From contig CAADGY010000438.1 in assembly GCA_900696665.1 (NCBI GenBank), forward strand, positions 1-34,190: a stretch of DNA of 34,190 nt. The letters run 5' to 3'. Below the pieces are notes generated by a model. The model did not search any database. It was not told the DNA's origin and saw only the letters and a list, made by a program, of their open reading frames with translations. Positions 2,616-19,023 of the stretch are shown one piece after another; the first letter of the stretch is position 1, and every line of letters starts with the position of its first letter. A program made the translations under genes and the position numbers. Source of the stretch: an uncultured Acidobacteriota bacterium. Its GTDB lineage: Bacteria; Acidobacteriota; Terriglobia; Bryobacterales; Bryobacteraceae.

Positions 2616-4326
2616 AGAGCGGGACCGGATCGTCCTGCGTCTCTATGAACAATTGCTCGAAATCGAGCAGCGGCTGATTCCCACTGGAATGCACGTATTC
2701 GGCAGACCGAACGCGCAAACCGAACGGGGGGACATGCTCCGAATGATCGCATCATTCGACCGGCCGGAGGTGGGATTCCGCTCGCTGCCCGGTCAGATCG
2801 CGGCGCGCCTGGGCTTTCCCGAGTACCAGATCCTGATGGAGGAGAGCGCAACGTGCGGCGAACGTCTCTTGCAGCGTGAACGGGTAGATGCAATCCTTCG
2901 CAGCGCGATAGAAAAGCTTCTGGCGGAAGATGGCGGCATCGAGGAGGCTGCTTCCCTGCTGGCCCGCGAGGCTTCCATTCCAACGGAAGACTCCACCGGG
3001 ATGCTTGCCTTTCTAAACGGCCTGAACCGGCAATTGGGTACTAACTCCGAAGTGGACGAATTGATGCGCGCCCTGCGCCGTGAATACATCGAGCCGGGCC
3101 CGGGCGGCGACCTGGTTCAGAATCCAAAGATTCTTCCCACGGGGCGGAACACGCATGCTGTCAATCCTTATGCCGTACCGTCCCACGTGGCGTTCCAGAA
3201 ATCCCGGGACACGATCAGGCGCTTGCTCAACCGCTGCCTCGACGAGCGTGGCCGCTACCCCGAAACCATCGGGATGGTCATCTGGGGCATGGACAATATC
3301 AAGACGCACGGCGAAGGCGTTGCACAAGCACTCTTATTGATGGGCGTGGTTCCGAAGCGCGATGGTATGAACCGTGTCACGGATGTGGAAATCATTCCGC
3401 CAGAAACGCTCGGCCGTCCGCGAATCGATGTGGTCTTCGTATTATCCGGTATCTTCCGCGATCTTTTCGGCGCCACTATAGAACTGCTGGATAAAGCGGC
3501 ACGCCAAGTCGCGGGCCTCGATGAACCGCCCGAAACAAATTTTCTTCGCAAACACGTTCAACAGGCGCAACAGGAGGGCTTATCCTGGTGTGACGCAGCG
3601 ACCCGCCTGTTTTCGAACGCGCCTGGAAACTACGGCACTAACGTCAATTTCATGGTCATCGGCGGTCACTGGGATCGCGCCGAACAGATTGGAGATCTCT
3701 TCGTGACGCGTAAGTGCTTCGCTTACGGCCGTGGGCTAGAGGGAGATCCTGCCGGGACGCTGATGGCTAAGGCTCTCTCGCGGGTCGAAGTCACGTATCA
3801 GAATCTCGATAACGCGGAGATCGGAATCACCGACGTCGATCACTATTTTGAATACCTCGGCGGCCTCACACAGGCCGTCAAGCAGCGCACCGGAGAGCGC
3901 CCGGCAACTTACGTTTGTGACAGCCTGAGTCCGCTCGTCAAGATCCGCTCGCTCAATGAGACGGTGCGTCTCGAAGTGCGTACAAAGCTTCTAAATCCGA
4001 AGTGGTATGGAGGAATGCTAAGGCACGGCTTTAGCGGAGTCGCCGAGATTGAGCACCACGTCAGCAATACCTTCGGTTGGAGCGCGACCGCCGGTGCGGT
4101 GGACGACTGGATCTACAGCGAGATCGCGAACACGTATGTAGTGGACGAAACAATGCGGAATCGCCTGGCGGAACTGAATCCTCATGCGACACGCAGTCTC
4201 GCCCAGCGCTTGCTGGAAGCGCACGGCAGAGGCTTCTGGGCCGCGCAGGAGAACGTTTTGGATCATCTGCACAACGCGCTCGACAAATTAGAGGATCACC
4301 TGGAAGGAGTCAACCGGCAAGCGTAG
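2590..4326 (+). CDS. bchH: Magnesium chelatase subunit H, C-terminal half encoded as a separate gene
   Basis: This 578-residue protein matches only the C-terminal part of the porphyrin-binding, catalytic BchH/ChlH subunit (CobN/Mg-chelatase superfamily). Diagnostic segments are EPGPGGDLVQNPKILPTG, FSNAPGNYGTNVNFMV, VEVTYQNLDNAEI, TKLLNPKWYGGMLRHG and GWSATAGAVDDW. It begins at the point where intact BchH reads ERDxxVxxxYxxLxEIExRL, so nothing from the N-terminal domain is present. The start is TTG 2590 behind AGGAGG at 2580-2585, inside the end of bchD. The missing N-terminal half is the next gene downstream, so the two halves are in inverted order. I infer two polypeptides that assemble into one H subunit. 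No frameshift or stop interrupts either half. Confidence 0.9.
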   Translation: MAGPARPAEERDRIVLRLYEQLLEIEQRLIPTGMHVFGRPNAQTERGDMLRMIASFDRPEVGFRSLPGQIAARLGFPEYQILMEESATCGERLLQRERVDAILRSAIEKLLAEDGGIEEAASLLAREASIPTEDSTGMLAFLNGLNRQLGTNSEVDELMRALRREYIEPGPGGDLVQNPKILPTGRNTHAVNPYAVPSHVAFQKSRDTIRRLLNRCLDERGRYPETIGMVIWGMDNIKTHGEGVAQALLLMGVVPKRDGMNRVTDVEIIPPETLGRPRIDVVFVLSGIFRDLFGATIELLDKAARQVAGLDEPPETNFLRKHVQQAQQEGLSWCDAATRLFSNAPGNYGTNVNFMVIGGHWDRAEQIGDLFVTRKCFAYGRGLEGDPAGTLMAKALSRVEVTYQNLDNAEIGITDVDHYFEYLGGLTQAVKQRTGERPATYVCDSLSPLVKIRSLNETVRLEVRTKLLNPKWYGGMLRHGFSGVAEIEHHVSNTFGWSATAGAVDDWIYSEIANTYVVDETMRNRLAELNPHATRSLAQRLLEAHGRGFWAAQENVLDHLHNALDKLEDHLEGVNRQA

Positions 4327-4343
4327 AGGGCGAGCCAGGGATT

Positions 4344-6500
4344 ATGAAAATCACTGTCTTCTATGTCGGATCCAGCCTGCTGGCGCCCCTCAAGAATGCC
4401 GAGCGGGAGATTAACAGGCAATGCCGGCTCGGGCTTGCCGTCGCTGCGCATAATTGCACACTGCGGGTTCCCGATGCCGAATGGCCGGCGATTGAACGCG
4501 ACATAGACGATGCCGCAATCGTTTTAATCATCCATGTAACCGACAATGACAACGCGGCACGGATCGTTGCGGCCCTGGACCGCTGCCGCTCACGCCATCG
4601 TGCGGTGATCGCCATCAATTGCATGCGCAGCCTGATGGTGCGCACCAGGCTCGGCAAGCTGGAAGGAATGAAGCTGTTCAATCTCTGGCGAGAAAGGGAG
4701 CGGGGCGCTATTTACCGGGCCGTGCGTGACGCGGGGTCCTGGATGGGCAGCTATGCACGCGCCCGAAACCGAGAGGATAAGAGCACGGGAGGACACAAGC
4801 ATTCCCTGCTTCTCAAGCAAATGCCGTCCCTTCTGCGGCTGACACCTTCGATAGGTATCCTGCGGGACGTCAAACACTATCTGACGGTTTTCTGCTATTT
4901 GCTTCAGCCCACACCAGGAAACATCCGGTCCCTGCTTCTCTACACCATCCGTCACTACATTCCCGAACTAGCAGGATGTATCCATCGTATCGACGCGCCG
5001 GAAAACAGACCCTCCACCGGAATCTATCATCCGGATGCGGCTTCGTTGTTCTCTTCTTTCGAAGAGTATTGCGCGTGGTACGAGGGGCGCCCGTTTGATA
5101 CCGGTGGCCACCCGCGCATGGACACAAACCGAGCTATCGGCCTGCTGCTGACGAGGCCGCAGATTGTGAGTGGCGCCTGCCGCCATTACGACTACCTGAT
5201 ACGGCTGCTCGAATCGGAAGGGCTTCCGGTAGTTCCGGTGCTGTCCACTTTCATGGACAACCGTGAAGCGTGCCAGGAATTTCTGGTGGATGCTCAAACC
5301 AACACCCCGCGTGTAGCCCAGATAGTTTCTCTTACGGGTTTCAGCTTTGTCGGTGGACCTGCGATGAACGACAGTGAGGCGGCCGTGGACTATCTCAAAG
5401 TTCTGAATCGCCCATTCCGGTCCATTGTCAGCCTGGAAATGCAGCGCATTGAGCAGTGGGAGGAGAGCGTCATTGGTCTGAACCCTGTGCAAACGGCCAT
5501 GCAGGTGGCTATCCCCGAGATCGACGGCGCCACGGAGCCTTTCGTGTTCGGCGGACTCGCGGCCGGTAAAGACGAACCGGAGGCGATCGAGGAACGGTGT
5601 GAACGGGTCGTTCGCCGCCTGGTTCGTTGGGACCGGCTGCGCCTGGCGCCCCGTTCCGAACGCCGCCTGGCATTCATCGTCTACTGTTTTCCTCCGGACA
5701 AAGGCAACCTGGGAACAGCGGCGGAGCTAGATGTGTTTCCCAGCATCTGGGATATTCTCCGGCGCCTTCAAACCGACGGATATCGCGTCGACGTACCCGA
5801 GACCCCCGATACCCTTCGCGGTCTCCTGCTCGGTGCAAACAGTGGTCTCGTTCCGGCAGGAGAACACCTGGCGTCGGTAGCCTATCGCATGCCTGTCGAG
5901 GAGTATTATCATTCGTGTCCTTATGTGCGCGAAATTGAAGAGGAGTGGGGATCTGCACCGGGCCGCATCAATGCTCACGGACGTGATCTTCTGATCCACG
6001 GCGTGCAGTTGAAAAATGTTTTTTTAGGTGTCCAGCCGACATTCGGTTACGAGGGCGATCCGATGCGGATGATGATGGCAAAGAACGGAACGCCCCATCA
6101 TGGTTTCATGGCTTTTTATTTGTATCTGGAAAACATCTTCCGCGCGGACGCCCTTATCCACGTGGGCACGCACGGGGCATTGGAGTTTATGCCTGGCAAA
6201 CAGACGGGACTATCGGGCTGCTGCTGGCCCGACCGCCTTATCAGGGAGTTTCCAAATATCTACATCTATAGTGTGAACAACCCGTCGGAAGGCTCTGTCG
6301 CCAAACGCCGATCCTACGCTGAGTTAGTGTCGTACCTTACACCGCCGATTGAGAACGCGGGGCTATATCGGGATCTGGCCGCACTGAAGGAATTGATTTC
6401 CAACTACCGGCAGGTTCAGGATGAGACTCAAAAGGAGCAGCTCTTCGTGTCCATCAAAGAAAAAGCCCGCGACCTCAACCTGGAACTCAAAGTATCGTAA
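4344..6500 (+). CDS. bchH: Magnesium chelatase subunit H, N-terminal half encoded as a separate gene
   Basis: This 718-residue protein carries the N-terminal part of BchH: the DUF3479-type head domain (MKITVFYVGSSLL..., about 1-160), then CobN-like domains containing LRLTPSIGILRDVKHYL, GVQPTFGYEGDPMR and HVGTHGALEFMPGKQTG. It stops at KARDLNLELKVS, just where the C-terminal half encoded upstream begins. Together the halves give 1296 residues, about the size of an intact H subunit. The head domain is typical of BchH and argues against cobaltochelatase CobN. The start is ATG 4344, 17 nt after the upstream stop; the open frame continues upstream to 4077, but that part lies within the other half-gene and has no family sequence. 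The Shine-Dalgarno is weak, so coupling to the upstream gene is likely. Confidence 0.9.
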   Translation: MKITVFYVGSSLLAPLKNAEREINRQCRLGLAVAAHNCTLRVPDAEWPAIERDIDDAAIVLIIHVTDNDNAARIVAALDRCRSRHRAVIAINCMRSLMVRTRLGKLEGMKLFNLWRERERGAIYRAVRDAGSWMGSYARARNREDKSTGGHKHSLLLKQMPSLLRLTPSIGILRDVKHYLTVFCYLLQPTPGNIRSLLLYTIRHYIPELAGCIHRIDAPENRPSTGIYHPDAASLFSSFEEYCAWYEGRPFDTGGHPRMDTNRAIGLLLTRPQIVSGACRHYDYLIRLLESEGLPVVPVLSTFMDNREACQEFLVDAQTNTPRVAQIVSLTGFSFVGGPAMNDSEAAVDYLKVLNRPFRSIVSLEMQRIEQWEESVIGLNPVQTAMQVAIPEIDGATEPFVFGGLAAGKDEPEAIEERCERVVRRLVRWDRLRLAPRSERRLAFIVYCFPPDKGNLGTAAELDVFPSIWDILRRLQTDGYRVDVPETPDTLRGLLLGANSGLVPAGEHLASVAYRMPVEEYYHSCPYVREIEEEWGSAPGRINAHGRDLLIHGVQLKNVFLGVQPTFGYEGDPMRMMMAKNGTPHHGFMAFYLYLENIFRADALIHVGTHGALEFMPGKQTGLSGCCWPDRLIREFPNIYIYSVNNPSEGSVAKRRSYAELVSYLTPPIENAGLYRDLAALKELISNYRQVQDETQKEQLFVSIKEKARDLNLELKVS

Positions 6501-6517
6501 ATATGGGAGGAGTCCAG

Positions 6518-6910
6518 ATGACAGAAAAGGCTGCTGAACTTGTCAGGCTGCTCGAAGCCGAACTCGACTTGATTGAAAGTGGAGCTTATGAGCCTTCGGC
6601 GGGGAGGCCAACCGAAGACAAGCCGATGTTCTACCATTCCCTGGTTTGTATCAATCACTGGTTCGTTCCCGGGCATGAACCGGAGTGTCACGATGACTGC
6701 GCGCTACTCGATGCCGTTCCTGACAAGCGCAAGGCGGAGGCGCTGCCCTGTCATCATATTCCCCTGAACGAGGCGGGAGACACGGTGAAATCCTTGGAAG
6801 AAAAAGGTCAGCATGAGCGTGTCAAGGAAGAAGTGGCAAACTGGCTGCGCAATGCCATTCGCCAGCTCAAGATGGAAGAAAAGCCGGTTCGTTCGGATGT
6901 GAAATACTAA
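6518..6910 (+). CDS. Small conserved-looking Cys/His-rich protein of unknown function
   Basis: I do not recognise a named family. The product has 130 residues. A helical, acidic N-terminus (EAELDLIESGAY) is followed by a Cys/His-rich middle with LVCINHW, GHEPECHDDC and LPCHHIPLN, and a charged helical C-terminus. Four cysteines and several histidines in about 55 residues could bind a metal or iron-sulphur cluster, but this is inference. ATG 6518 was chosen over the in-frame ATG 6503 because GGAGGAG at 6507-6513 sits just before it and overlaps the codons after 6503. It lies 17 nt after the bchH N-half and is probably the last gene of the chelatase operon; the next operon has its own promoter. 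Confidence 0.7.
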   Translation: MTEKAAELVRLLEAELDLIESGAYEPSAGRPTEDKPMFYHSLVCINHWFVPGHEPECHDDCALLDAVPDKRKAEALPCHHIPLNEAGDTVKSLEEKGQHERVKEEVANWLRNAIRQLKMEEKPVRSDVKY

Positions 6911-6989
6911 GCTGTAAGGCTTCCAAGCCGCCTCCTGCCGTTCTCGCACGCCTGAAATTCTACCGCCTCCGGCGCACAGATTCTGCTTA

Positions 6990-7018
6990 TTGACAAAAAG
7001 TTCATTCGCCAATATAAT
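6990..7018 (+). promoter_or_regulatory. Perfect-consensus sigma-70 promoter for the bc/cox operon
   Basis: TTGACA at 6990-6995 and TATAAT at 7013-7018 are separated by exactly 17 bases, an exact match to the housekeeping consensus. Transcription should start near 7025, leaving a leader of about 35 nt before the Rieske start at 7059. A TTG-initiated reading of the Rieske frame from 6990 would begin on the -35 box and is therefore unlikely. Confidence 0.85.
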
Positions 7019-7058
7019 GTTGCGGCAAGCCAATCTACTGGGAAGGATATGGCAAGGC

Positions 7059-7673
7059 ATGGAGACCACGCGTTCTCCGGGTCTGGGCGGCGGGACGATT
7101 CCAAAGCCGCCTTCGAAAGCAAAACTGGCCGCTAAACCCGCAGTGGTCGAAGCTGTAGGGGTAGCCAAGCCGCAGTCAGACGAAAAACCACCGCTGACGT
7201 TCCGGCGCCGGCTGGTCTGGACGGCGGTTGGCGGATTTCTGATAACCAACTTCCTGATGTTCCTTCGCTTCTTCTTCCCGCGCACTCTTTTCGAGCCTAG
7301 TTCCAGGTTTCGTATCGGCTATCCAGCGGATTTTAGTCTTGGTGTGGACGAGCGATTCAAACAGTCTCATCGTATCTGGGTCGTGCGGCAACCGGATAAA
7401 TTGTTCGTGGTTTATGCGAAGTGCACCCACCTCGGATGCACTCCGAACTGGGTGGAGACCGAAAACAAGTACAAGTGCCCGTGTCACGGAAGTGGATATG
7501 ACATGGAAGGAAGAAACTTCGAAGGTCCAGCTCCCCGGCCAATGGACCGCGCGCACGTCGAGTTCGACGCGGATGGCCAGATTGTTGTCGACATAGCCCG
7601 GTTATATTCATGTCCTCCGGGCGCGCCGTGTCAGTTTGAAACGGACCCTAATTCATACTTAGTCGTTTCGTAG
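7059..7673 (+). CDS. Rieske [2Fe-2S] protein of a cytochrome bc/b6f-type complex
   Basis: The protein takes electrons from quinol at the cytochrome b quinol-oxidation site and passes them to a c-type cytochrome outside the membrane. It has 204 residues from ATG 7059, preceded by GGAAGGA at 7041-7047. A Pro/Lys-rich cytoplasmic stretch is followed by one membrane anchor (about 50-68, after an RRR motif), then the soluble Rieske fold. Cluster motifs are CTHLGC at 122-127 and CPCHGS at 140-145: Cys122, His124, Cys140 and His143 bind the cluster and Cys127/Cys142 form the usual disulphide. It is the first gene after the consensus promoter and is followed 67 nt later by cytochrome b, which supports its place in that complex. 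Confidence 0.93.
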   Translation: METTRSPGLGGGTIPKPPSKAKLAAKPAVVEAVGVAKPQSDEKPPLTFRRRLVWTAVGGFLITNFLMFLRFFFPRTLFEPSSRFRIGYPADFSLGVDERFKQSHRIWVVRQPDKLFVVYAKCTHLGCTPNWVETENKYKCPCHGSGYDMEGRNFEGPAPRPMDRAHVEFDADGQIVVDIARLYSCPPGAPCQFETDPNSYLVVS

Positions 7674-7740
7674 TCACTTACCGGGTATCTAAGGATCGCT
7701 GCATCAGCGGTAAACGCTGTCTTTCTGGGGAGACACGAAG

Positions 7741-8619
7741 ATGGAGTCTGGGCGTCCCGACGAAGAGAGCAACATCGCTCTCAAAGAGAAGATCCGCGAA
7801 GACTGGAAGGAGCTACGTGAAGATCTGAAAGAGCCGCAGAAAACGCAGCTCTGGAAATCGGTCTTTCGCGTTAAGCACGAGCGGGCCGACCCGCGCACCC
7901 GGGCGCTTGGTGTTCTCACTAACGTCTTTCTGCACCTCCACCCGGCCCGAGTCAACCGTGACGCCGTCCGTTACAGTTACACCTGGGGAATGGGTGGTAT
8001 TACTTTCTATCTGTTCATTGTTCTGACATTTACTGGTGTGTTACTGATGTTCTATTATCATCCCACCAAGATCCAGGCGTTCCGGGACATACTATTTCTT
8101 GAACACGATGTGCCTTTCGGTAAATTGTTACGTAACATGCACCGGTGGGCCGCACATCTGATGATCATCACGCTCTGGCTTCACATGTTCCGTGTGGTTC
8201 TCACCGGATCATACAAGAAGCCGCGTGAGTTCAACTGGTGTGTAGGCGTCATTCTGCTGGTTCTCACTCTTCTGCTTTCGTTTACAGGCTATCTTTTGCC
8301 GGATGACCAGCTTGGTTTTTGGGCGGTGACCGTTGGAACGAACATGGCGCGTGCCACTCCGCTTCTGGGCAGCGAAGGGCCGTTAGGGCCGCAACTGGGC
8401 ATGACGCCATTCAACGATGTCCGTTTCGCATTGCTCGGGGGATCGATCGTTGACGCAAACGCGCTGCTCCGGGCGTATATTTGGCATTGCATTGCCATCC
8501 CGCTGATTGCCGGTGTGTTTATGGGCGTTCACTTCTGGCGGGTACGTAAAGATGGGGGGATCTCCGGGCCGGCGCCGGTGATGCTGGAGTCCGAGATCAA
8601 ACCGGTATTGAGGCGGTAA
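7741..8619 (+). CDS. Cytochrome b, N-terminal (b6-type) subunit
   Basis: This is the dihaem membrane subunit of a bc/b6f-type quinol oxidoreductase, carried as a split cytochrome b. The 292-residue product has a charged N-terminal extension of about 80 residues, then four membrane helices. Haem ligands are His134/His148 in helix B and His249/His264 in helix D; the 15-residue step in helix D (14 residues between ligands) is the b6 spacing rather than the bc1 spacing. GGITFYLF and the terminal RKDGGISGP also resemble b6. The Cys that holds the extra covalent haem in true b6 is not present at the matching place (the sequence reads YTWGMGG). ATG 7741 follows GGGGAG with good spacing. Confidence 0.93.
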   Translation: MESGRPDEESNIALKEKIREDWKELREDLKEPQKTQLWKSVFRVKHERADPRTRALGVLTNVFLHLHPARVNRDAVRYSYTWGMGGITFYLFIVLTFTGVLLMFYYHPTKIQAFRDILFLEHDVPFGKLLRNMHRWAAHLMIITLWLHMFRVVLTGSYKKPREFNWCVGVILLVLTLLLSFTGYLLPDDQLGFWAVTVGTNMARATPLLGSEGPLGPQLGMTPFNDVRFALLGGSIVDANALLRAYIWHCIAIPLIAGVFMGVHFWRVRKDGGISGPAPVMLESEIKPVLRR

Positions 8620-8671: not shown

Positions 8672-9607
8672 ATGGACTGGGCGCAGTTGTGGAGTATCGT
8701 CTCGCTCCCGGACAACATACCGATTGTTGCGCTAGCGGTGCTCGTACCGTTTTACACGTGGTACGGGTTGCGGCAGGCGCAAGCTACCGACCGGCTAATC
8801 ACCCAACTCGAGAGCAACCCAAGTCTGGCGCAGACACACCATCGGAAAATCTATCCGTTCCAGCCCGGCTGGGCCCGCGAGCTACAGGTTTGGCCCTACT
8901 TGCTTCGCGTCGAGTTTCTGGCAGCCATCATCGTCACACTCGTGCTCATGATCTGGTCGATTACTTTGAATGCACCCCTCGAAGAGCCTGCAAATCCCAA
9001 CCACACAATGAACCCGTCCAAAGCTCCCTGGTATTTCGTCGGGCTTCAGGAGATGCTTGTCTACTTCGACCCGTGGTTTGCGGGTGTAGTGCTGCCGACA
9101 CTGATTGTCGTCGGGCTCATGGTGTTTCCATATATCGATACGAATCCCCTAGGTGTCGGCTATTACACGATCAAACAGCGGCTGATCCCATTGTTGGGGT
9201 TTGGGGTGGGCTTCCTCCTCTGGATTCTTCTCATCTTCATTGGCACCTTTGTCCGGGGTCCTGGTTGGATGTGGTTCTGGCCGGGCCAAACGTGGGACCA
9301 CACGCGCGTGATGTATGAAGTGAACCACAATCTCTCCGATCTTCTCCGTATAACGAATCCCTGGTTAGGCGCAATCGCCGGCGTTGCCGCAATTGGCTTG
9401 TTCTACACCGTTACAGGCTGGGGCATTCATAAGCTCGTTACAAGGACCAGGTTTGATCGAAAGATCTATGGCAGAACAAACCTGCTTCAATATCTTACTT
9501 TCCAATTTTTTGCCATCACGATACTGGTAGGGTTGCCGGCGAAGATGCTTCTTCGCCTGCTATTCAACATCAAGTACGTTCTGATAACACCGTGGTTCAA
9601 CATCTGA
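8672..9607 (+). CDS. Cytochrome b C-terminal (subunit IV-like) protein
   Basis: This is the second half of the split cytochrome b and completes the quinol-oxidation site. The 311-residue membrane protein has about six predicted helices, more than the three of plant-type subunit IV. The site normally reading PEWY is seen as SKAPWYFVGLQEML, so the usual Glu is replaced. The following segment YFDPWFAGVVLPTL is typical of the cytochrome b C-terminal domain of several soil and anaerobic phyla. AAGGAGG at 8661-8667 precedes ATG 8672. The gene lies 52 nt after the b6-type gene and 13 nt before the octahaem cytochrome, so all are likely co-transcribed. Confidence 0.88.
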   Translation: MDWAQLWSIVSLPDNIPIVALAVLVPFYTWYGLRQAQATDRLITQLESNPSLAQTHHRKIYPFQPGWARELQVWPYLLRVEFLAAIIVTLVLMIWSITLNAPLEEPANPNHTMNPSKAPWYFVGLQEMLVYFDPWFAGVVLPTLIVVGLMVFPYIDTNPLGVGYYTIKQRLIPLLGFGVGFLLWILLIFIGTFVRGPGWMWFWPGQTWDHTRVMYEVNHNLSDLLRITNPWLGAIAGVAAIGLFYTVTGWGIHKLVTRTRFDRKIYGRTNLLQYLTFQFFAITILVGLPAKMLLRLLFNIKYVLITPWFNI

Positions 9608-9620
9608 GATACCACCTGCT

Positions 9621-12600
9621 ATGGAAGACGAACGACAGGATGCCAGCCCGTTAACAGATCCAATCGCAGGGCACAGTCTCAGCGCCCCGATCCTGATTGC
9701 GTCAGTCCTGCTGTTCGTTTCACTCGTCTGGGCGCTTTATGACGAGCTGTTAGGCCAGCGGCCGTGGAAAGGCTATCAGCGGCAGTTTGTCCAACTGTAT
9801 AGCTCTTACCTGAAGAAGCTGGGCCCACGGCAGGCACAGGCTGAAGGAGTGGTCTATAACTCCCGGGAATATCGCGCGCTTGAGCAGCGGCTGACTGCCG
9901 CGGAGGAAGCCGTAGCTCCGCGGGTAAGAGAGATCGAGACAGAATTGACAGGCATCCGCCAGCAGCTGGAGTCGATCCGAATACCGTTTCAGGATGCACG
10001 GGCGAAGGTCGCCGCACTCACTTACCAACTGGAACACGCCTCCGCGGGCCGCAAAGAGTCTATTCGACGAGAGATTCGAGAGGCGAGGAAAGGACCTTTC
10101 CGGCTCGAGCTCGCATCCAGCGTTGGTAAGAGTCCGGCGCAGCCCCAGGCTCTGGATTTCAACAAGCTGGAAGCCATTTTCAATGGCTTGAAGGGCCGTG
10201 AAGCCCAGCTTAATGCCGAACAGGCAGAGATCACCAGAGAATCGAGAGAGCTTCGCCGCCTTCGTGCCGAGTATCTGAGTGATCATCTTGCCGGAGTAAG
10301 TCAAACGCAGATCGACGCGCTAATCCGCAAGATGGACACCTTCCGTTATGAGATCAAGCAGATTCATGTCGAAGAGGCTGGCCTGATTGATCGATGCCAG
10401 TCGTGCCATCTCGGCATTTTGGAGCCTGTTGCGCTCTCGGCCGCCGATATGGGAGGACAGCGTGCATTTGTCAGCCATCCGAATAAGCCGCTTCTGGCAC
10501 TTCACGATCCCGTCCGATTCGGTTGTACGCCTTGCCACAACGGAAACGGACTGGCCACAGCGAGTGTCGAGGACGGACACGGTAATTACAAGCATTGGCT
10601 CTGGCCTCTTTTCGCAAAAGAGAATAGCGAAGCCGGCTGCCTGCAGTGCCACTTCCACGACCGGGTGCTCGAATATGCGCCCACTCTTACCCGTGGCCGA
10701 GATCTTTACGAGTTGAAAGGCTGCATCGGTTGTCATCGCTACGAAGGGTTCGATCGCGAATCCGATGCTTTATCCAACAACTACAAGACTATCCAGGCGC
10801 TTGAGCAACAGCAAAAGGAAGCGCGGCTTGAAGCGGATCGGGAGATCAAGGCAGGTGACCTGGCCGAGTCGAACGAAGCGGCGCGGCGTCACTATGCCCG
10901 AGCCGAAAGTCTGCGAGTGCGCGCCAGCAACATGGATGCGAGGCTGGCGGAGCTCAATCAACAAAGCCGGTTCCTCATGCAGGACCAGAAAATGACCGGA
11001 CCCAATCTGAAGGACGTCCGGCTCAAGCTCCGGAAGGAATGGATTCCCGTCTGGCTGAAGGACCCACAAGCCTTTCGTCCGGGAACCAAGATGCCTCGCT
11101 TCCGGCTCTCGGAAGAGGAAATTCGTGCTCTGTCCGCATTCGTCTGGCAATCCGCGCTCGAAGGGCCGAAGCCCGAAATGCAAGCGAAAGGAGATCCAGC
11201 CGCTGGAAAGGAGTTGTTTGAGACGCGCGGCTGCATGGGCTGCCATTCCCTGGGCGAAGGTGAGAACCGTATAGGAGGAGAGTTCGCAGGAAACCTGTCC
11301 CGGCTGGGCGAAAAGGCAAACTACGATTACATCGTTCGCTGGATTCACAATCCGCGCGATCGCACGCGGCCTTACTGCCCGCACGAGAAGCGCGACCTCG
11401 GACCCGAGGATTATACCCGCCACGGGCTTCCATACAAGTTCGGACTCCACAACTCGAAGTGTCCGAATGACGGCCACGAGGTTCAGGTGCAGAACATGAC
11501 GGTGATGCCGAGTCTGCGGCTCTCCTGGCAACAGGCTCGTGACATCGCCATGTATCTGACGAATCTCAAACACGATGGCGCCGCTTACTCGCAAGATGTC
11601 TCGTACATGGACGACCCCAAATTGGCCGCACGAGGCCAGATGCTGATGAGCCGTTACGGTTGTGCGAGTTGCCATGAAGTACGCGGCCTCGAAGATGCAC
11701 CTCGCATCGGCACGGAGCTGACAAAGGAGAGCTCCAAACCGATGGAGCAACTCGATTTCGGCTTGCTCGAACACAGGGCTAAACGCGAGAACTGGTATAG
11801 CCACAAAGGCTTCTACGAAGCCAAACTTCGGGACCCGGCGTTCTTCGATCAGGGGCGTGAGAAGGCGCCTGAAGAACGGCTCCGCATGCCGAACATCCAA
11901 CTGACAGCAGATGACCGGCGCGCGCTTACAACATTCCTGCTCGGCAGCATGGACTCCGCATTCCGAGCCCAGTTCCGCACTATTCCAGAGCAGTTCCGCT
12001 ACATACCGACCGATCAGCAGAAAGACATTCAGGAGGGGTGGTGGCTGATCAAGAAATACAACTGCATGGGTTGCCACAATATTCAGATCGGGCAAAAGTC
12101 CATCCTTAGCGGTTTGCCGCGATACCAGGATCCGGATTGGAAAGAGCAGTTGCCGCCGACCCTGGTGCAACAAGGCGCGCGCGTCGATCCCGAGTGGCTG
12201 ACGCGCTTCCTGGCCGATCCGTCTCTTGGCAACACCGACTCAACGCGCAATGGTGTCCGCACTTATCTTCACGCGCGCATGCCCACGTTCAGCTTTTCTC
12301 CAAACGAAATTCAAAAACTGGTCCGGTTTTTCCTGGCGGCTGCCGGACAGAGTAGCCCCTACATCCCAAGCCGGCTCGAACCGCTGGATGACAAGGAGCG
12401 GCAAATGGCCCGCACCCTTTTCTCGTCGCAGGCAGCGCCTTGTTTAAAGTGCCACCTAGTAGGTGATCCCGGCCACGATCGGTTTGCAACAGCTCCCAAT
12501 TTCCTGATTGCGAAAGAACGGCTCAAACCCGATTGGACGGCCCGCTGGCTGACAGATCCTCAATCGATCAGTCCGGGAACAGCCATGCCATCGGGGCTCT

Positions 12601-12806
12601 TCCGGCGCGAAGGAGAACGCTGGGTATTTGCCGGGCCGGTCCCGGCGGCTTTCAAAGAATACTCGAAAGATCACATCGAGCTATTGGTACGGTACATGTT
12701 CCAATTGACGCCAGATGAGCAGCGCCGGCTGATTCAGACAATGCCCAAAGCCGCGCCGGCGGCTGCTACTCGAGAGGTGGCGGCGAGAACCGCCGGTTCC
12801 CGCTGA
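9621..12806 (+). CDS. Large membrane-anchored octahaem c-type cytochrome
   Basis: The 1061-residue protein carries eight CXXCH haem-attachment motifs starting near residues 259, 302, 340, 368, 538, 681, 815 and 941. One membrane helix near 20-37 anchors it with the bulk outside the cytoplasmic membrane. Residues of about 60-240 and 385-445 are rich in charged heptad-like sequence and probably form coiled coils. The last four haems sit in separate cytochrome-c-like domains, each introduced by a segment such as GKELFETRGCMGCH. Placed directly after the Rieske and cytochrome b genes, it is inferred to replace cytochrome c1/f and to collect electrons for the oxidase downstream. I cannot assign it to a named family; each haem motif is directly visible. 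Confidence 0.88.
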   Translation: MEDERQDASPLTDPIAGHSLSAPILIASVLLFVSLVWALYDELLGQRPWKGYQRQFVQLYSSYLKKLGPRQAQAEGVVYNSREYRALEQRLTAAEEAVAPRVREIETELTGIRQQLESIRIPFQDARAKVAALTYQLEHASAGRKESIRREIREARKGPFRLELASSVGKSPAQPQALDFNKLEAIFNGLKGREAQLNAEQAEITRESRELRRLRAEYLSDHLAGVSQTQIDALIRKMDTFRYEIKQIHVEEAGLIDRCQSCHLGILEPVALSAADMGGQRAFVSHPNKPLLALHDPVRFGCTPCHNGNGLATASVEDGHGNYKHWLWPLFAKENSEAGCLQCHFHDRVLEYAPTLTRGRDLYELKGCIGCHRYEGFDRESDALSNNYKTIQALEQQQKEARLEADREIKAGDLAESNEAARRHYARAESLRVRASNMDARLAELNQQSRFLMQDQKMTGPNLKDVRLKLRKEWIPVWLKDPQAFRPGTKMPRFRLSEEEIRALSAFVWQSALEGPKPEMQAKGDPAAGKELFETRGCMGCHSLGEGENRIGGEFAGNLSRLGEKANYDYIVRWIHNPRDRTRPYCPHEKRDLGPEDYTRHGLPYKFGLHNSKCPNDGHEVQVQNMTVMPSLRLSWQQARDIAMYLTNLKHDGAAYSQDVSYMDDPKLAARGQMLMSRYGCASCHEVRGLEDAPRIGTELTKESSKPMEQLDFGLLEHRAKRENWYSHKGFYEAKLRDPAFFDQGREKAPEERLRMPNIQLTADDRRALTTFLLGSMDSAFRAQFRTIPEQFRYIPTDQQKDIQEGWWLIKKYNCMGCHNIQIGQKSILSGLPRYQDPDWKEQLPPTLVQQGARVDPEWLTRFLADPSLGNTDSTRNGVRTYLHARMPTFSFSPNEIQKLVRFFLAAAGQSSPYIPSRLEPLDDKERQMARTLFSSQAAPCLKCHLVGDPGHDRFATAPNFLIAKERLKPDWTARWLTDPQSISPGTAMPSGLFRREGERWVFAGPVPAAFKEYSKDHIELLVRYMFQLTPDEQRRLIQTMPKAAPAAATREVAARTAGSR

Positions 12807-12842
12807 GGAATGGTCATTGATGTCAAACAGGAGGGTATGGCT

Positions 12843-13703
12843 ATGAAGAACTTACCGGAACTTACAAAAGCGGCGATCGCTGCGGTTGTAGGGCTCCTTT
12901 TGGTTACTTCCGGTTGCGGCGGCAGAGAGGAGCAAAAAGGCGAAACTGCCGAAGAAACAACAGCGCCAGGCGGGGCTGTCTGGACGCCGACGGGAGACGA
13001 AGGCACACTAACAGGCAAGGTGGCCTTTCAAGGACAGGCTCCTAAGTTCAGGGCAATCGCGATGGATGCCGATGCGGTGTGCGCGGCCAAACACTCAAAG
13101 CCTGTATATCCGGAAGCCGTGATCGTCAATAGCAACGGTACGCTGCGGAACGTTTTTGTTTACGTCAAGACTGGACTGGAAGACAAAAACTTTGCGGTGC
13201 CGGATGACCCGGTGGAACTCGACCAGGATGGGTGCATCTATAAACCGCATGTTCTCGGAATCCAGTCCCGCCAGAATTTGCGCGTTGTTTCGAGCGATAA
13301 CACAACTCATAACATTCACCCCATGCCGAAGGTGAACCGCGAATGGAATGTGTCGCAGCCGCCGGGCGCAGATCCGATTATTCAGGTGTTCAACCGGCCG
13401 GAAGCTACTATCCCGGTGAAATGTAATCAGCATCCGTGGATGAGAGCCTATATCCACGTAATAAGTCATCCTTTCTACGCCCTTTCCGGAGAGGACGGCA
13501 CGTTTGAGATCAAGGGTCTTCCTCCCGGTAAGTACCAGCTTGAAGCCGTTCACGAAGAGTATGGTGCCTCCACGCAGGAAGTAACTGTCGCAGCCAAGCA
13601 GTCCGTACCGGTGGAGTTCAAGTTCCAGGCTGCTCAGACCTACACCCCCAGTTCCTTGAAAGTTATGCCTGCGCTGGTGTTGCCTTGCTGTGCAGGTAAA
13701 TAG
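12843..13703 (+). CDS. Cupredoxin-like lipoprotein with a carboxypeptidase-regulatory-like domain
   Basis: The product is probably an exported, lipid-anchored copper protein and a candidate electron carrier. The N-terminus (MKNLPELTKA..., 286 residues) has a basic start, a hydrophobic core and Cys25 in the sequence VTSGC, a marginal lipobox. The central domain has His156 and His159 (TTHNIH), Cys194, His197 and Met200 in VKCNQHPWM, the Cys-x2-His-x2-Met spacing of type-1 copper sites. From about residue 210 a small beta-sandwich domain follows (DGTFEIKGLPPGKYQLEAVHE). ATG 12843 is preferred because GGAGGG lies about 8 nt before it; ATG 12837 is too close. The family resembles methylamine-utilisation-type cupredoxins. 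It lies between the bc-type genes and the oxidase genes, which fits an electron-shuttle role. Confidence 0.78.
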   Translation: MKNLPELTKAAIAAVVGLLLVTSGCGGREEQKGETAEETTAPGGAVWTPTGDEGTLTGKVAFQGQAPKFRAIAMDADAVCAAKHSKPVYPEAVIVNSNGTLRNVFVYVKTGLEDKNFAVPDDPVELDQDGCIYKPHVLGIQSRQNLRVVSSDNTTHNIHPMPKVNREWNVSQPPGADPIIQVFNRPEATIPVKCNQHPWMRAYIHVISHPFYALSGEDGTFEIKGLPPGKYQLEAVHEEYGASTQEVTVAAKQSVPVEFKFQAAQTYTPSSLKVMPALVLPCCAGK

Positions 13704-13729: not shown

Positions 13730-14656
13730 ATGGATCTGAATTGCACTCAGGCAGCGCTCAATTCCCAGCCATCCCGTACCATCGGGGCGATGTCCTCAAG
13801 AGCCGTCATGCGGCGGCTTTGTGCCTATCTGGAACTTGCAAAGCCGCGAGTGACAGCCTTGATCCTTGTGGTTGCGTGGGCGGGTTTCTGGTGCGCATCC
13901 GAAGGTGTGCCGGACCGCAGATTGCTGCTGCTAACCATGGCGGGTCTGGCTCTGCTCGCCTCAGGGATGTTTGCGCTGAATCATTTCATGGAGCGGGATC
14001 TCGACGCGTTGATGCAGCGGACGCAGTCACGCCCGCTGCCATCTGGAAGGCTCAAGGCTTCAGAAGCGCTGTGGTTCGGGACCGGCACAACCATTGCCGC
14101 CTTGTTCACGCTCAGCGCGATTAACGCGCTGACGGTGGCGCTGGGTCTGTTGACACTAGCCAGTTACTTGCTGCTCTATACTCCCTTGAAGCGGCGGACG
14201 CCCCGTTGCACCTTCATCGGAGCCTTTCCCGGGGCAATGCCGCCGCTGGTAGGGTGGGTGGCGGCTCGCAATGCGTTAGACTTGGAGGCCCTGGGGCTTT
14301 TTGCCATCGTCTTTTTTTGGCAATTTCCCCATTTCCATTCGATCGCGTATCTTTACCGCGAGGATTATGCGCGGGGCGGCGTTCGTATGTGGCCCGTGGT
14401 CGAGCACGGTGGCAAGGTCATGGGACGCGAGATTGTGGCCGCCGCCGCACTGCTCGTTCCCGCGAGCCTCCTGCCCACACCGCTGGGCATGGCGGGGCAA
14501 TTCTATGCGTTCGCCGCATTCCTGCTGGGAGCCGCGTTTTTCCTTGTATGTCGCCAAATGGCTGTCTTGCCGGGGAGAAGGACAGCGCAACGCCTGTTAC
14601 TGGCTTCGGTTGTCTATCTCCCATCACTATTGTTACTGATGCTGTTGAACCGGTGA
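13730..14656 (+). CDS. ctaB: Protohaem IX farnesyltransferase (haem O synthase)
   Basis: This UbiA-family prenyltransferase adds a farnesyl group to haem b to make haem O, the precursor of haem A for the oxidase encoded next. The product has 308 residues with about eight to nine membrane helices. LELAKPRVT opens the catalytic domain, and the prenyl-diphosphate/Mg2+ site is seen as NHFMERDLDALMQRTQSRPL. The second conserved region contains WQFPHFHSIAYLYREDY. In-frame ATGs at 13790 and 13808 are also possible starts, because the first 30 residues carry no family sequence. No haem A synthase (ctaA) was seen in the window, so whether haem A is made must be judged elsewhere in the genome. Confidence 0.9.
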   Translation: MDLNCTQAALNSQPSRTIGAMSSRAVMRRLCAYLELAKPRVTALILVVAWAGFWCASEGVPDRRLLLLTMAGLALLASGMFALNHFMERDLDALMQRTQSRPLPSGRLKASEALWFGTGTTIAALFTLSAINALTVALGLLTLASYLLLYTPLKRRTPRCTFIGAFPGAMPPLVGWVAARNALDLEALGLFAIVFFWQFPHFHSIAYLYREDYARGGVRMWPVVEHGGKVMGREIVAAAALLVPASLLPTPLGMAGQFYAFAAFLLGAAFFLVCRQMAVLPGRRTAQRLLLASVVYLPSLLLLMLLNR

Positions 14657-14695
14657 TCACCGCCGTTGCGTGGCGGGTTGGGATTGGAGTGGAAC

Positions 14696-15490
14696 ATGAT
14701 CTTAGCGTTAGCTCTCTTTTTCGTGGTAATGGCTTCTGTCACCGTAGGGATTTTCGTTTTGCGTATCTGGTGGCTACCCGAGCAGGTTTCCGCCCACGGC
14801 GGGGCCATTGATCAGCAATTGATTCTCACCCTGACGATCGCCGGTATTGTCTTTTTTCTGGCACAGGTGGCGCTAAGTTACGTGCTATGGCGGTTCAGGG
14901 CTCGTGGAGACAAACGGGCGAGTTACTGGCATGAGAATTCAACGCTGGAACTGACTTGGACGTTGGCGACGGCTGCTCTTTTTGTGGGGCTTGGCGTTCT
15001 GGGAAACCGGGTCTGGGCGAATTACCTTTTTTCGCAGGAAGTTCCGGATGTAACAACCGTGGAAGTGACGGGTCAGCAATTTGCATGGAACATCCGATAC
15101 CCGGGAGTTGATAACACCTTTGGCCGAACGGACCCGGCTCTCATCAATGATGCCCAGGCAAACTACTTGGGGCTCGACTCGAAAGACAAAGCAAGCCGGG
15201 ACGACGTTATGACGCAAAATATCATGGCGGTACCGGTAAATCGTCCGATCCGGGTCATTCTACGGTCAAAAGATGTTACCCACAGTTTTCATGTGCCCCA
15301 ACTACGGGTGAAGCAGGACGCGGTGCCGGGAATGGCGATCCGAGTCCATTTCACTGCTCTCCGGACTGGAGAATACGAGATCGCCTGTGCCGAGCTTTGC
15401 GGCATGCAGCATTACAAGATGCGAGGCCGGCTGCTTGTAATGGAAGACGCCGACTTCAGAACCTGGCTCAAATCGCGGATCGAGTTTTGA
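14696..15490 (+). CDS. coxB: Cytochrome c oxidase subunit II (CuA protein)
   Basis: The subunit receives electrons from the periplasmic carrier at the binuclear CuA centre and passes them to subunit I. The product has 264 residues with two membrane helices (about 1-22 and 42-66), then the cupredoxin domain. CuA ligands are His199 (HSFHVP) and Cys231, Glu233, Cys235, His239 and Met242 in CAELCGMQHYKM. No C-terminal haem c domain is fused. ATG 14696 has GGAG about 7 nt upstream; the longer TTG-initiated reading from 14666 adds no family sequence. An insert of about 25 residues after FAWNIRYPG (around 135-165) is somewhat longer than usual. It is in an operon with coxA, 22 nt downstream. Confidence 0.93.
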   Translation: MILALALFFVVMASVTVGIFVLRIWWLPEQVSAHGGAIDQQLILTLTIAGIVFFLAQVALSYVLWRFRARGDKRASYWHENSTLELTWTLATAALFVGLGVLGNRVWANYLFSQEVPDVTTVEVTGQQFAWNIRYPGVDNTFGRTDPALINDAQANYLGLDSKDKASRDDVMTQNIMAVPVNRPIRVILRSKDVTHSFHVPQLRVKQDAVPGMAIRVHFTALRTGEYEIACAELCGMQHYKMRGRLLVMEDADFRTWLKSRIEF

Positions 15491-15512: not shown

Positions 15513-17276
15513 ATGGCAGGTCCGGCAGCAGTTCACGAGGTCAGAAGAAGTTTTATCCGGCGCTACATTTTCAGTGTCGATCATAAGGTGATCGGTATTC
15601 AGTATCTATTGTTGGCGCTGGTTTCCGTCACGGTTGGAATGATACTGTCGGTGTTCATGCGGCTGAGGCTGGCCTGGCCGGAAGAGAAGTGGCCGCTGCT
15701 GCAGCAACTTATGCCTACAGCTTTTGCCGGTGGCCCGATGACGCCTGAGTTTTACCTGTCCATGATGACGATGCACGGAACTATCATGGTGTTTTTCGTC
15801 CTGACCACCGCACCGCTATCGGGGTTCGGCAACTATTTCCTGCCGATTCAGGTAGGCGCCCGCGATATGGCGTTCCCAACGATCAATATGCTGTCGTTTT
15901 GGGTGACATTCGTCGCATTGGGGGTGATGATCTGCGCGTTGTTTGTAACCGGTGGAGCGCCGATCTCGGGCTGGACCGGATATGCCCCTCTCAGCGCGTT
16001 GGGTGAAATCGCCGGCCCCGGTTTAGGTCTGGGGCAGACTCTATGGGTCATCAGCATCGCCATCTTCTGTGTGGCGTCACTCCTGACGTCACTGAATTTT
16101 CTCACCACGACCCTGAATCTGCGCGCTCGTGGAATGTCGCTGACACGGATGCCGCTGACGGTGTGGGCATGGTTTACAACGGCTATTCTGGCGCTCCTGG
16201 CATTTCCTGTATTACTCGCCGCCGGCATCTTACTCATTCTCGACCGCGTGGGCGGAACCAGCTTTTTTATCCCGGCCGGTCTGATAGTAAGTGATAGAGT
16301 AATTCCACACGAAGGGGGATCACCACTTCTCTGGCAGCATTTATTCTGGTTCTTCGGCCACCCGGAAGTATATATCGCCATCCTTCCCGGAATGGGGGTG
16401 ACCTCGCATATTCTCTCTACGTTTGCCCGGAAGCCGGTATTCGCCTATCGCGCGATGGTAGGTGCGATCTTCGCAATCGGCTTCATCAGCTACATCGTCT
16501 GGGGCCACCACATGTTCATGAGTGGTATGAGCCCATATTCCAGCATGGCATTCTCCATTACGACGCTCGCGGTCGGTGTACCTTCCGCCATCAAGACCTT
16601 CAATTGGCTGGCCACCCTCTGGGGCGGCCAGATCCGCTTTACGGCCGCAATGCTGTTCTCAATTGGCTTTGTATCGCTGTTCGTTTCGGGCGGGGTTACC
16701 GGACTCCTGTTGGCGCAACCGGCGGTAGATATTGCTCTGCATGATACCTACTTCGTCGTCGCGCATTTTCACATCATCATGGGCGTGGCGGCGATCTTCG
16801 GAATCTTTGCGGGCCTACATTACTGGTTCCCGAAGATGTTTGGCCGCATGATGAGCGAGACGCTCGGAAAGGTACACTTCTGGTTAACTCTTCTGGGCGT
16901 CTATTGCGTGTTCATGCCAATGCACTTCCTTGGCCTTGCGGGAGGGCTCCGCCGGTACGCGCAATTGACGGAGTTTGAGTTTTTGCGGCCTCTCCAGCCG
17001 ATTCACGTGTTCATTTCAGTAGCGGCATTCGTAACCATCGCGGCTCAACTGGTTTTCCTCTTCAACTTTTTTTGGAGCATGAAACGCGGCCAGGCGGTGG
17101 GTCCCAACCCATGGGATTCGACGTCTCTCGAATGGACTACGCCGTCTCCGCCCCCTCATGACAATTTCGGTCCGCTGGAACCTGTTGTTTACCACGGACC
17201 GTATGAGTATGGAGTTCCCGGAGCTAGCAAGGATTATGTCATGCAAACGGAACCGGAGGTGGAAGTTGGGCGATAG
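15513..17276 (+). CDS. coxA: Cytochrome c oxidase subunit I (haem-copper, A1-type)
   Basis: This is the catalytic subunit that reduces O2 to water and pumps protons. The product has 587 residues with at least twelve membrane helices. Key residues visible are His88 (haem a), His283-Pro-Glu285-Val-Tyr287 (CuB ligand, D-channel Glu and cross-linked Tyr), His332-His333 (CuB), and His418/His420 in VAHFHIIMG (haem a3 and haem a). The D-channel entry Asp is present in GARDMAFP and the K-channel Lys in PSAIKTF. The Glu in HPEVY places it in the A1 group. ATG 15513 follows GGAAGGAGAAGGA, a strong Shine-Dalgarno. Full length, no interruption. Confidence 0.96.
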   Translation: MAGPAAVHEVRRSFIRRYIFSVDHKVIGIQYLLLALVSVTVGMILSVFMRLRLAWPEEKWPLLQQLMPTAFAGGPMTPEFYLSMMTMHGTIMVFFVLTTAPLSGFGNYFLPIQVGARDMAFPTINMLSFWVTFVALGVMICALFVTGGAPISGWTGYAPLSALGEIAGPGLGLGQTLWVISIAIFCVASLLTSLNFLTTTLNLRARGMSLTRMPLTVWAWFTTAILALLAFPVLLAAGILLILDRVGGTSFFIPAGLIVSDRVIPHEGGSPLLWQHLFWFFGHPEVYIAILPGMGVTSHILSTFARKPVFAYRAMVGAIFAIGFISYIVWGHHMFMSGMSPYSSMAFSITTLAVGVPSAIKTFNWLATLWGGQIRFTAAMLFSIGFVSLFVSGGVTGLLLAQPAVDIALHDTYFVVAHFHIIMGVAAIFGIFAGLHYWFPKMFGRMMSETLGKVHFWLTLLGVYCVFMPMHFLGLAGGLRRYAQLTEFEFLRPLQPIHVFISVAAFVTIAAQLVFLFNFFWSMKRGQAVGPNPWDSTSLEWTTPSPPPHDNFGPLEPVVYHGPYEYGVPGASKDYVMQTEPEVEVGR

Positions 17277-17312: not shown

Positions 17313-18017
17313 ATGGTTGCGAGGACGTTGAAAGATACTGCCGGGATCAGGTTCGATACCGGAGGACCGGGACCTGGTGGCAACGGAGGAGAAGGCCGCG
17401 AGCCCGGCAAATCTCAGGTCCATTACACTGGCATGTTCTTTGCTCTGGCGGCCATCGGTATGTTGTTTGTAGCTCTGACCAGCGCCTATGTCGTGCGTCA
17501 GGGCTTGGACCCGGCATGGAAACCGGTTCGGATGCCGGCCATCCTGTGGTTTAATACCTTCGCGCTGATCACCAGCAGTTTTACTTTGAAAAAAGCGCGG
17601 TGGGCTTTGACGCGCGTCCGCGTGTCCACTCTGTCGGGCGGTGGTGCCACGGCAGCTCTTTACGGCTGGCTTACCCTTACTCTTGTACTTGGCTTCATCT
17701 TCCTTTGCGGGCAGTTAGTAGCCTGGCGACGACTATCTTTAGAAGGGCTGTATTTGAGTACAAGCCCACACAGCTCCTTTTTCTACCTTTTGTCGGGATT
17801 ACACGGTCTGCACTTACTGGGAGGTATTGCCGCTATCCTGTGGCTCGATCTAATCATCTGGCGGGATCACGGCTTTCCCATTCAGAGGGGCCTGAACTGG
17901 CTCGGAAAGCTTGAGCTTCCAGTTCTTAGGCGCAAAGTAGAGGCTACCGCTCTCTACTGGCATTCGATGGGCGCTTTGTGGGTTTATCTTCTGCTGTTAC
18001 TGTTTGCCTGGAGATGA
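17313..18017 (+). CDS. coxC: Cytochrome c oxidase subunit III, first copy
   Basis: Structural subunit that stabilises subunit I and its proton uptake. The product has 234 residues: a Gly-rich soluble N-terminus of about 40 residues (GGPGPGGNGG), then about five membrane helices. The subunit III signature is visible in SPHSSFFYLLSGLHGLHLLGG and the C-terminal ALYWHSMGALWVYLL. A loop of about 25 residues (HGFPIQRGLNWLGKLE...) sits before the last helix. It lies 36 nt after coxA. A second, shorter subunit III gene follows 32 nt downstream, so two different members of this family are encoded together. Confidence 0.87.
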   Translation: MVARTLKDTAGIRFDTGGPGPGGNGGEGREPGKSQVHYTGMFFALAAIGMLFVALTSAYVVRQGLDPAWKPVRMPAILWFNTFALITSSFTLKKARWALTRVRVSTLSGGGATAALYGWLTLTLVLGFIFLCGQLVAWRRLSLEGLYLSTSPHSSFFYLLSGLHGLHLLGGIAAILWLDLIIWRDHGFPIQRGLNWLGKLELPVLRRKVEATALYWHSMGALWVYLLLLLFAWR

Positions 18018-18049
18018 AATGAGGACTTGCTTACCGGGAGGTGAACACA

Positions 18050-18679
18050 ATGGCTGATTCCAGAGTACTGCCATTGGGTGAAGCGGAATGGGGCGGCGGA
18101 GTTTCACCATACGCTGTCGGGCACAAGAAACTGGGAATGTGGCTTTTCCTCCTGTCGGATTCGCTTACTTTCTCGGCATTGTTGATTGCCTACAGCTACG
18201 TGCGGATTGCAAGCGACCAATGGCCGCTTCCCTTTCATCTGTGGCCGTCAATTGCCATGGCCACGGTGATGACCTTTCTTCTACTCTCGTCTAGCCTCAC
18301 GATGGCCTTCGGCGTCGCTGCGGCAAAACGGGGCGATACCAGGAGCGCCGTCCGTTTCATTGTGCTCACGATCTTATGCGGAGTCGGATTTGTCGTCCTT
18401 CACGCCAATGAGTGGATGACGCTGATCGATGAAGGGGTGCGGTTGTGGAGCAATCCAATGGGCACACCCCTGTTTGGAGCGACCTTTTTTACCTTGACCG
18501 GCCTTCACATGGCACACGTGGCGAGCGGCGTCATTTATCTGGCGGTGATTGCCGCGGGGCTTCCGGGAAATCGCTTCCACCACGAGGATGTCGAGATCAG
18601 CGGCCTGTACTGGCATTTCGTGGACCTGGTCTGGATGTTTATCTTTCCGCTGGTCTATTTGCTGTCGGTAGCACCGTAA
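18050..18679 (+). CDS. Cytochrome c oxidase subunit III, second copy
   Basis: The product has 209 residues with five predicted membrane helices and belongs to the same haem-copper oxidase subunit III family as the gene before it, but the two are clearly diverged. Recognisable segments are GHKKLGMWLFLLSDSLTF near the N-terminus, FTLTGLHMAHVASGVIYL, and the terminal LYWHFVDLVWMFIFPLVYL. ATG 18050 was chosen over GTG 18041 because GGGAGG lies just upstream of the GTG and gives normal spacing only to the ATG. I infer that the two subunit III proteins occupy one oxidase or allow alternative assemblies; the sequence cannot decide. Confidence 0.88.
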   Translation: MADSRVLPLGEAEWGGGVSPYAVGHKKLGMWLFLLSDSLTFSALLIAYSYVRIASDQWPLPFHLWPSIAMATVMTFLLLSSSLTMAFGVAAAKRGDTRSAVRFIVLTILCGVGFVVLHANEWMTLIDEGVRLWSNPMGTPLFGATFFTLTGLHMAHVASGVIYLAVIAAGLPGNRFHHEDVEISGLYWHFVDLVWMFIFPLVYLLSVAP

Positions 18680-18708
18680 AGCTGTGCATTCAGAAAAGGG
18701 GTGATTCC

Positions 18709-19023
18709 ATGAATCAGGAACCAACACACGTGGAAAGCGACGGTTCCGCGGCTTATATATGGGTATGGATCTGCCTGCTGGCCCTGACCGCGGTAGAGAT
18801 TGTGTTTGCTTATGTGCACCTGCTCCCCGTCTCCGGTATGCTGTTGCTGCTGATGGCGCTCTCTATCGTCAAAGCAGGGCTCATCATGGCGTACTTCATG
18901 CACCTCCGGTTTGAAAGGCCAAGCCTTGTCGTATCCCTGATACCCGGTGCGGTTCTGGTGATTACTCTGCTTCTCGTATTCTTTCTGGATAGCTTCCGGT
19001 TGTTTGAGTTGAGGGTTCGATAG
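18709..19023 (+). CDS. Cytochrome c oxidase subunit IV (prokaryotic COX4 family)
   Basis: A 104-residue accessory subunit of the oxidase with three membrane helices. The family signature is visible as ALSIVKAGLIMAYFMHLRFE, in which the Lys and the YFMHL motif are typical of bacterial subunit IV, followed by a hydrophobic C-terminal helix ending in a charged tail. ATG 18709 follows AGGGGTG. An open frame reaching back to 18445 in the same phase runs inside the preceding gene and is not real. It follows the second subunit III gene by 29 nt. Confidence 0.88.
   Translation: MNQEPTHVESDGSAAYIWVWICLLALTAVEIVFAYVHLLPVSGMLLLLMALSIVKAGLIMAYFMHLRFERPSLVVSLIPGAVLVITLLLVFFLDSFRLFELRVR

Follow-up and report, generated by a model that had tools for sequence, protein, structure and literature searches.

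An octahaem Rieske/cytochrome b complex of Acidobacteriota related to the anammox complex Kustd1480-1485 and its probable connection to aerobic respiration through a blue-copper lipoprotein

The DNA analyzed here, designated as the window, is a stretch of 34,190 nucleotides from an uncultured Acidobacteriota bacterium. It probably encodes a complex of the Kustd1480-1485 kind, known from Kuenenia stuttgartiensis, that is joined to aerobic respiration in the order quinol, Rieske protein, octahaem cytochrome, copper lipoprotein, and the CuA center of an oxidase. The genes and motifs concerned are as follows.

6990-7673, forward strand: Rieske [2Fe-2S] subunit (PF00355; motifs CTHLGC and CPCHGS)
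7741-8619, forward strand: b6-like, four-helix cytochrome b (PF00033; ExtP-like NCBIfam match)
8672-9607, forward strand: subunit IV-like membrane protein (weak ExtQ match; kept in the loci of relatives)
9621-12806, forward strand: octahaem cytochrome c subunit (open reading frame from ATG to stop, 1061 aa, N-terminal anchor)
10395-10736, forward strand: haem motifs 1-4, residues 259, 302, 340, and 368 (invariant alignment columns)
10764-10988, forward strand: predicted coiled-coil hairpin at residues 382-456, separating haem motif 4 from its Met ligand (motif spacing and model helices)
11232-12455, forward strand: haem motifs 5-8, residues 538, 681, 815, and 941 (alignment)
12810-13703, forward strand: lipoprotein with a predicted plastocyanin/amicyanin-like cupredoxin domain and a CarboxypepD_reg-like domain (ligands and fold)
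13730-14656, forward strand: haem O synthase CtaB (TIGR01473)
14666-15490, forward strand: CoxB with the CuA motif CAELCGMQHYKM and without a haem c domain (TIGR02866)
15513-17276, forward strand: CoxA, haem-copper oxidase subunit I (PF00115)
17313-18679, forward strand: two subunit III-like genes, 17313-18017 and 18041-18679 (PF00510)
18445-19023, forward strand: oxidase subunit IV (COX4_pro, PF03626), whose true start is probably after the listed start of the open reading frame

The translation of the open reading frame 9621-12806 agrees with the preliminary description of a 1061-residue protein with eight CXXCH motifs. Shuffled versions of this protein contain 0.009 such motifs on average and never more than one. 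Its sole hydrophobic segment spans residues 20-38, as expected from the single N-terminal anchor described earlier, and the two coiled-coil-like regions reported at the same time are supported by long helices predicted at residues 48-139, 180-239, and 382-456. The local pLDDT of these helices is mostly 70-88, in a model of the protein alone, built with 17 sequences, whose overall confidence (pLDDT 59) is too low for estimates of haem distances or a fold comparison. According to Pfam, the C-terminal part contains class I cytochrome c domains, and the region of approximately haems 1-3 is MtrC/c7-like. The PDB sequence search returned weak cytochrome c matches only, and one haem domain showed a partial QcrC-like match of 44 bits against a cut-off of 200.

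Axial ligands were assigned to haems from their order and spacing. H286, H295, and H320 are invariant among the 17 aligned octahaem sequences, and haems 1-3 are probably bis-His coordinated through these residues. A Met-Pro pair is likewise invariant at M491, M629, M756, M887, and M989, which fits five class I-like domains with His/Met coordination for haems 4-8. Counterparts of both sets of residues are present in the alignment of the remote set. Two extra cysteines, C586 and C614 (11376-11462), are nearly invariant in an insertion of haem domain 5, and they perhaps constitute a disulfide or a metal site.

The genes for Rieske, cytochrome b, subunit IV, and the octahaem protein follow each other in the window with no intervening gene. 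The first three were found directly upstream of the octahaem gene, on the same strand, at all 29 usable loci of Acidobacteriota and Planctomycetota, that is, those with enough sequence upstream of the octahaem gene. Thus, homologues of the octahaem protein are not always distant from bc genes, and the gene order is shared by the relatives. No cytochrome f and no c1 match were found in the window, where the octahaem protein is present instead and no other open reading frame contains CXXCH. Cytochrome b and subunit IV are split rather than forming a single chain of 7-8 helices, and hydropathy indicates approximately five or more hydrophobic segments in subunit IV. Subunit IV has the Qo motif APWY, not PEWY, in the window and in all aligned relatives that cover the motif. 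The gene order at the 29 loci, together with the multihaem equivalent Kustd1485, supports the earlier proposal that the octahaem protein stands in for c1 or f. The earlier placement of its gene between cytochrome b and the oxidase genes holds insofar as subunit IV and the cox operon flank it, but the immediate 3' gene encodes the cupredoxin lipoprotein, which had been overlooked.

Two other features of the surroundings were recognized. A BchH-like magnesium chelatase large subunit at 2590-6500 is split into two open reading frames in swapped order, the C-terminal half (2590-4326) lying upstream of the N-terminal half (~4330-6500), and a BchD-like gene (693-2615) precedes them; the same swapped split stands beside the octahaem complex at loci L010 and L019. 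A HEAT-repeat protein with a lipoyl-like stretch (19555-20427) is a conserved neighbor of the octahaem complex in Acidobacteriota as well as Planctomycetota.

In the Kustd1480-1485 complex, cytochrome b is b6-like and is accompanied by a subunit IV-like protein, cytochrome f is replaced by a cytochrome with six or eight haems, and the long helices of Kustd1485 wrap half around the complex (PMC12954380). The best PDB match of the window Rieske protein is 9rk3, which is Kustd1480, with the E-value 9e-40, compared with 7e-22 for Kuste4569 (9rk4). Orthologous clusters were found in genomes with hydrazine synthase, including the anammox locus L069. The Rieske protein of L069 matches all 117 residues of 9rk3 with 234 bits, and the cytochrome b of this locus contains the residues H62, R266, and K267 that were published for Kustd1481 (PMC12954380). 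The homology between the window octahaem protein and Kustd1485 was assessed via the anammox orthologue at L069. This orthologue, 939 aa in length, is homologous to the window protein with the E-value 1e-65 and has the same pattern of CXXCH motifs and ligands. By sequence comparison, Kustd1480-1485 is the closest known system to the window complex, sharing the b6-like cytochrome b, the subunit IV-like protein, the anchored multihaem cytochrome with long helices, and the nearest Rieske protein. Because of this kinship, seen in the Rieske protein and in the octahaem orthologue, the architecture with an octahaem protein in place of c1 or f is not new; it is already known from anammox.

The octahaem protein family is real and widespread across Acidobacteriota and Planctomycetota. 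The scan of the genome collection revealed 19 close relatives, each with exactly eight CXXCH motifs, and the number is also eight in all full-length relatives retained after filtering. Matches at E ≤ 1e-30 were found in 68 of 297 sampled Acidobacteriota genomes, approximately 18 of which have a full-length protein of the window type. In planctomycetes, 110 of 294 genomes have a match at E ≤ 1e-20, partial and remote matches included. The tree of 49 octahaem proteins is divided into three groups: anammox proteins; acidobacterial proteins plus one planctomycete protein, about 950-1110 aa in length; and a clade of 39 rows (SH-aLRT 100) that contains the window. A second anammox cluster, at L072, encodes a further octahaem relative of 849 aa (5930-8476), which has a long branch in the tree.

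The window protein belongs to a separate, aerobic clade, apart from the anammox group. The distance from haem motif 4 to Met-Pro is 123 residues in the window and 108-135 in its clade, while it is 46-57 in the other two groups; the coiled-coil hairpin of ~75 residues at 382-456 is extra to the window clade and absent from the anammox group and the group with the haem c(n) Cys. Wherever cytochrome b is readable, the haem c(n) position is Gly in the window clade, including the window itself in the alignment of relatives, and Cys in the other two groups (TWGMGG versus TWCMGG in anammox). Clusters of the window clade lack the NAD(P) oxidoreductase gene, and they are linked to the copper lipoprotein and usually to an aa3 oxidase.

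Production of NAD(P)H via electron bifurcation was proposed for the anammox complex, and a novel haem b at an interface of the anammox complexes is proposed to be bound by His, Arg, and Lys residues. It is extremely unlikely that the window complex also makes NAD(P)H, with the high-potential electron passing through the octahaem subunit. Such a role would agree with the homology to Kustd1480-1485 and with the predicted interface-haem His/Arg/Lys residues conserved in the window cytochrome b (His65 and the RKDGG end). However, the Rieske-to-octahaem run contains no further gene, Gly occupies the position of the haem c(n) Cys, and no Pyr_redox/Fer4 protein was found among the window open reading frames scanned, unlike at L069, which encodes one.

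The protein encoded at 12810-13703, directly after the octahaem gene, has a lipobox and is predicted to be a type-1 copper protein. The His-Cys-His-Met ligand set is conserved among 40 aligned homologues: H167, C205, and H208 in 40/40, and M211 in 38/40. The AF2 model (pLDDT 88) shows similarity to cupredoxins with Z 12.9 and to plastocyanin 7pcy with Z 12.6, at rmsd 1.6-1.7 over ~85 residues (1.7 over 84 residues for 7pcy). The cupredoxin domain was not recognized in PDB and Pfam sequence searches of this protein, and its identification is based on ligand conservation and the predicted fold. At 26 of 35 loci, the gene is the immediate 3' neighbor of the octahaem gene. It is absent from the anammox loci, and none was found in the available locus sequence of the planctomycete relatives L020 and L073.

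This copper protein family is also associated with alternative complex III, of which ActD is the marker. Members lie within ~5 kb of ActD in at least 19 sampled genomes, and at L094 and L098 the gene is just 5' of a CoxA-like gene in alternative-complex-III operons. Cupredoxin lipoproteins were observed in alternative complex III-oxidase clusters of Acidobacteriota at L094, L095, L096, L098, and L099, sometimes as two copies flanking ActD. The copper protein does not strictly accompany the octahaem gene, since it is found in many genomes that lack the latter, often beside ActD. The presence of one copper family beside two unrelated quinol-oxidizing complexes supports a role as electron acceptor, and the copper lipoprotein may accept electrons from both types of complex. 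One alternative complex III, of a phototroph, feeds the blue-copper protein auracyanin (PMC8552683).

The lipoprotein could instead be a copper chaperone for CuA, with soluble cytochrome c from elsewhere shuttling the electrons. The copper gene is beside cox genes in many loci, and a 111-aa soluble monohaem cytochrome c is encoded on another contig (C91) of the genome. This is nevertheless quite improbable: the copper gene stays next to the octahaem gene at L008, L016, L021, and L067, where no cox genes were found within the ~7 kb or more available on both sides, and the His-Cys-His-Met set with a plastocyanin-like fold is typical of electron-transfer type-1 sites.

An aa3-type cox operon is located within ~12 kb of the octahaem gene in most loci with enough sequence, in both phyla; with the four loci just mentioned, the cox linkage is common but not universal. 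No CXXCH, and hence no haem c, is present in the linked CoxB proteins, and the CuA motif, in the form searched, is found in all but one. Given the frequent adjacency of cox genes and the presence of CuA without haem c in the linked CoxB proteins, a link from the octahaem complex to the oxidase is plausible.

In the actinobacterial bcc-aa3 supercomplex, the dihaem QcrC passes electrons directly to CuA. The multihaem c subunit of the window might feed CuA in the same way, by docking on CoxB as a direct wire in an obligate supercomplex with the copper lipoprotein as an accessory. The large size, eight haems, and long helices of the octahaem protein are compatible with this, as are the frequent adjacency of cox and the CoxB proteins free of haem c, and alternative complex III with its multihaem subunit forms supercomplexes with aa3 (PMC8552683). 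Against it stand the conserved type-1 copper lipoprotein gene directly downstream, the soluble cytochrome c in the genome, and the relatives without adjacent cox. The window also differs from the actinobacterial system in its eight haems, its split b6-type core, and its copper lipoprotein, and its genome encodes a soluble cytochrome c. A direct wire in a supercomplex is thus possible but rather unlikely, and transfer via the copper lipoprotein is the likelier route. The preliminary description had suggested that a separate cytochrome c could be unnecessary and reported no small soluble one nearby. The latter is confirmed, as the window contains no further CXXCH open reading frame of 50 aa or longer; the former cannot be claimed, since the genome provides carrier candidates in the copper lipoprotein and the 111-aa cytochrome c.

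The same genome includes other quinol-oxidizing complexes. Alternative complex III is represented by ActD on contig C192, near which a CoxB-like protein with a haem c is encoded. Contigs C307 and C72 encode two more complexes of Rieske protein and cytochrome b, in which cytochrome c is fused. The octahaem complex is therefore not the sole route to oxygen. Mutual exclusion with alternative complex III was rejected, as ActD is present in this genome and in many octahaem genomes. A sulfate-reducing acidobacterium is reported to have, in addition to alternative complex III, a cytochrome bc complex that is induced by oxygen (PMC10564751). The open-licence literature search revealed no paper describing the octahaem complex in Acidobacteriota.

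With these parallel complexes in the genome, cox missing at some loci, and a chain of three probably bis-His and five His/Met haems, the octahaem subunit could be a junction or store for several periplasmic partners, or oxidize an external donor, the cox neighborhood reflecting co-regulation. This is improbable, because the cox linkage recurs in both phyla and, with the axial ligands conserved, none of the haems is an obvious candidate for substrate binding.

The remaining known systems are less similar to the window complex. It resembles b6f and bc1 in the Rieske and cytochrome b core, and b6f in the split between b6 and subunit IV, but the window lacks cytochrome f or c1, has APWY instead of PEWY at Qo, and lacks the Cys for haem c(n) of b6f. 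Alternative complex III is likewise a multihaem quinol oxidizer linked to aa3 or caa3, with the cupredoxin family in both operons, but its catalytic core is unrelated, with no Rieske protein or cytochrome b. The Ext cluster of Geobacter, named for selenite/tellurite reduction, shows matches in ExtP and ExtQ, but these are below the family cut-offs: 262 bits against a cut-off of 290 for cytochrome b, and weak for subunit IV.

In the favored route through the copper lipoprotein, quinol would be oxidized at the Qo site of the Rieske/cytochrome b6-subunit IV complex, and one electron would pass from the Rieske cluster to the octahaem subunit. This subunit has five His/Met haems in addition to three that are probably bis-His coordinated and close to the anchor, and its long helices probably keep the haem domains in place around the Rieske/b dimer. 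The electron would exit to the lipid-anchored, putative blue-copper protein of the next gene, which would deliver it to the CuA center of the neighboring aa3-type oxidase. A wider reading, which is tentative and somewhat doubtful, is that Acidobacteriota and many Planctomycetota share a previously undescribed aerobic module forming one supercomplex: a Rieske/b6 complex that has an octahaem subunit but no haem c(n), a lipid-anchored blue-copper carrier replacing soluble cytochrome c, and an aa3 oxidase, with the carrier family common to alternative complex III.

Soil Acidobacteriota are abundant, and their route from quinol-oxidizing complexes to the oxidase is little studied. If the proposed path is true, the module connects oxygen respiration with a type of complex that had been reported from anammox, and it provides a candidate for the carrier. 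It also concerns the NAD(P)H proposal for anammox: since the interface-haem residues are conserved in complexes without an NAD(P) module, the interface-haem site need not be specific to the production of NAD(P)H.
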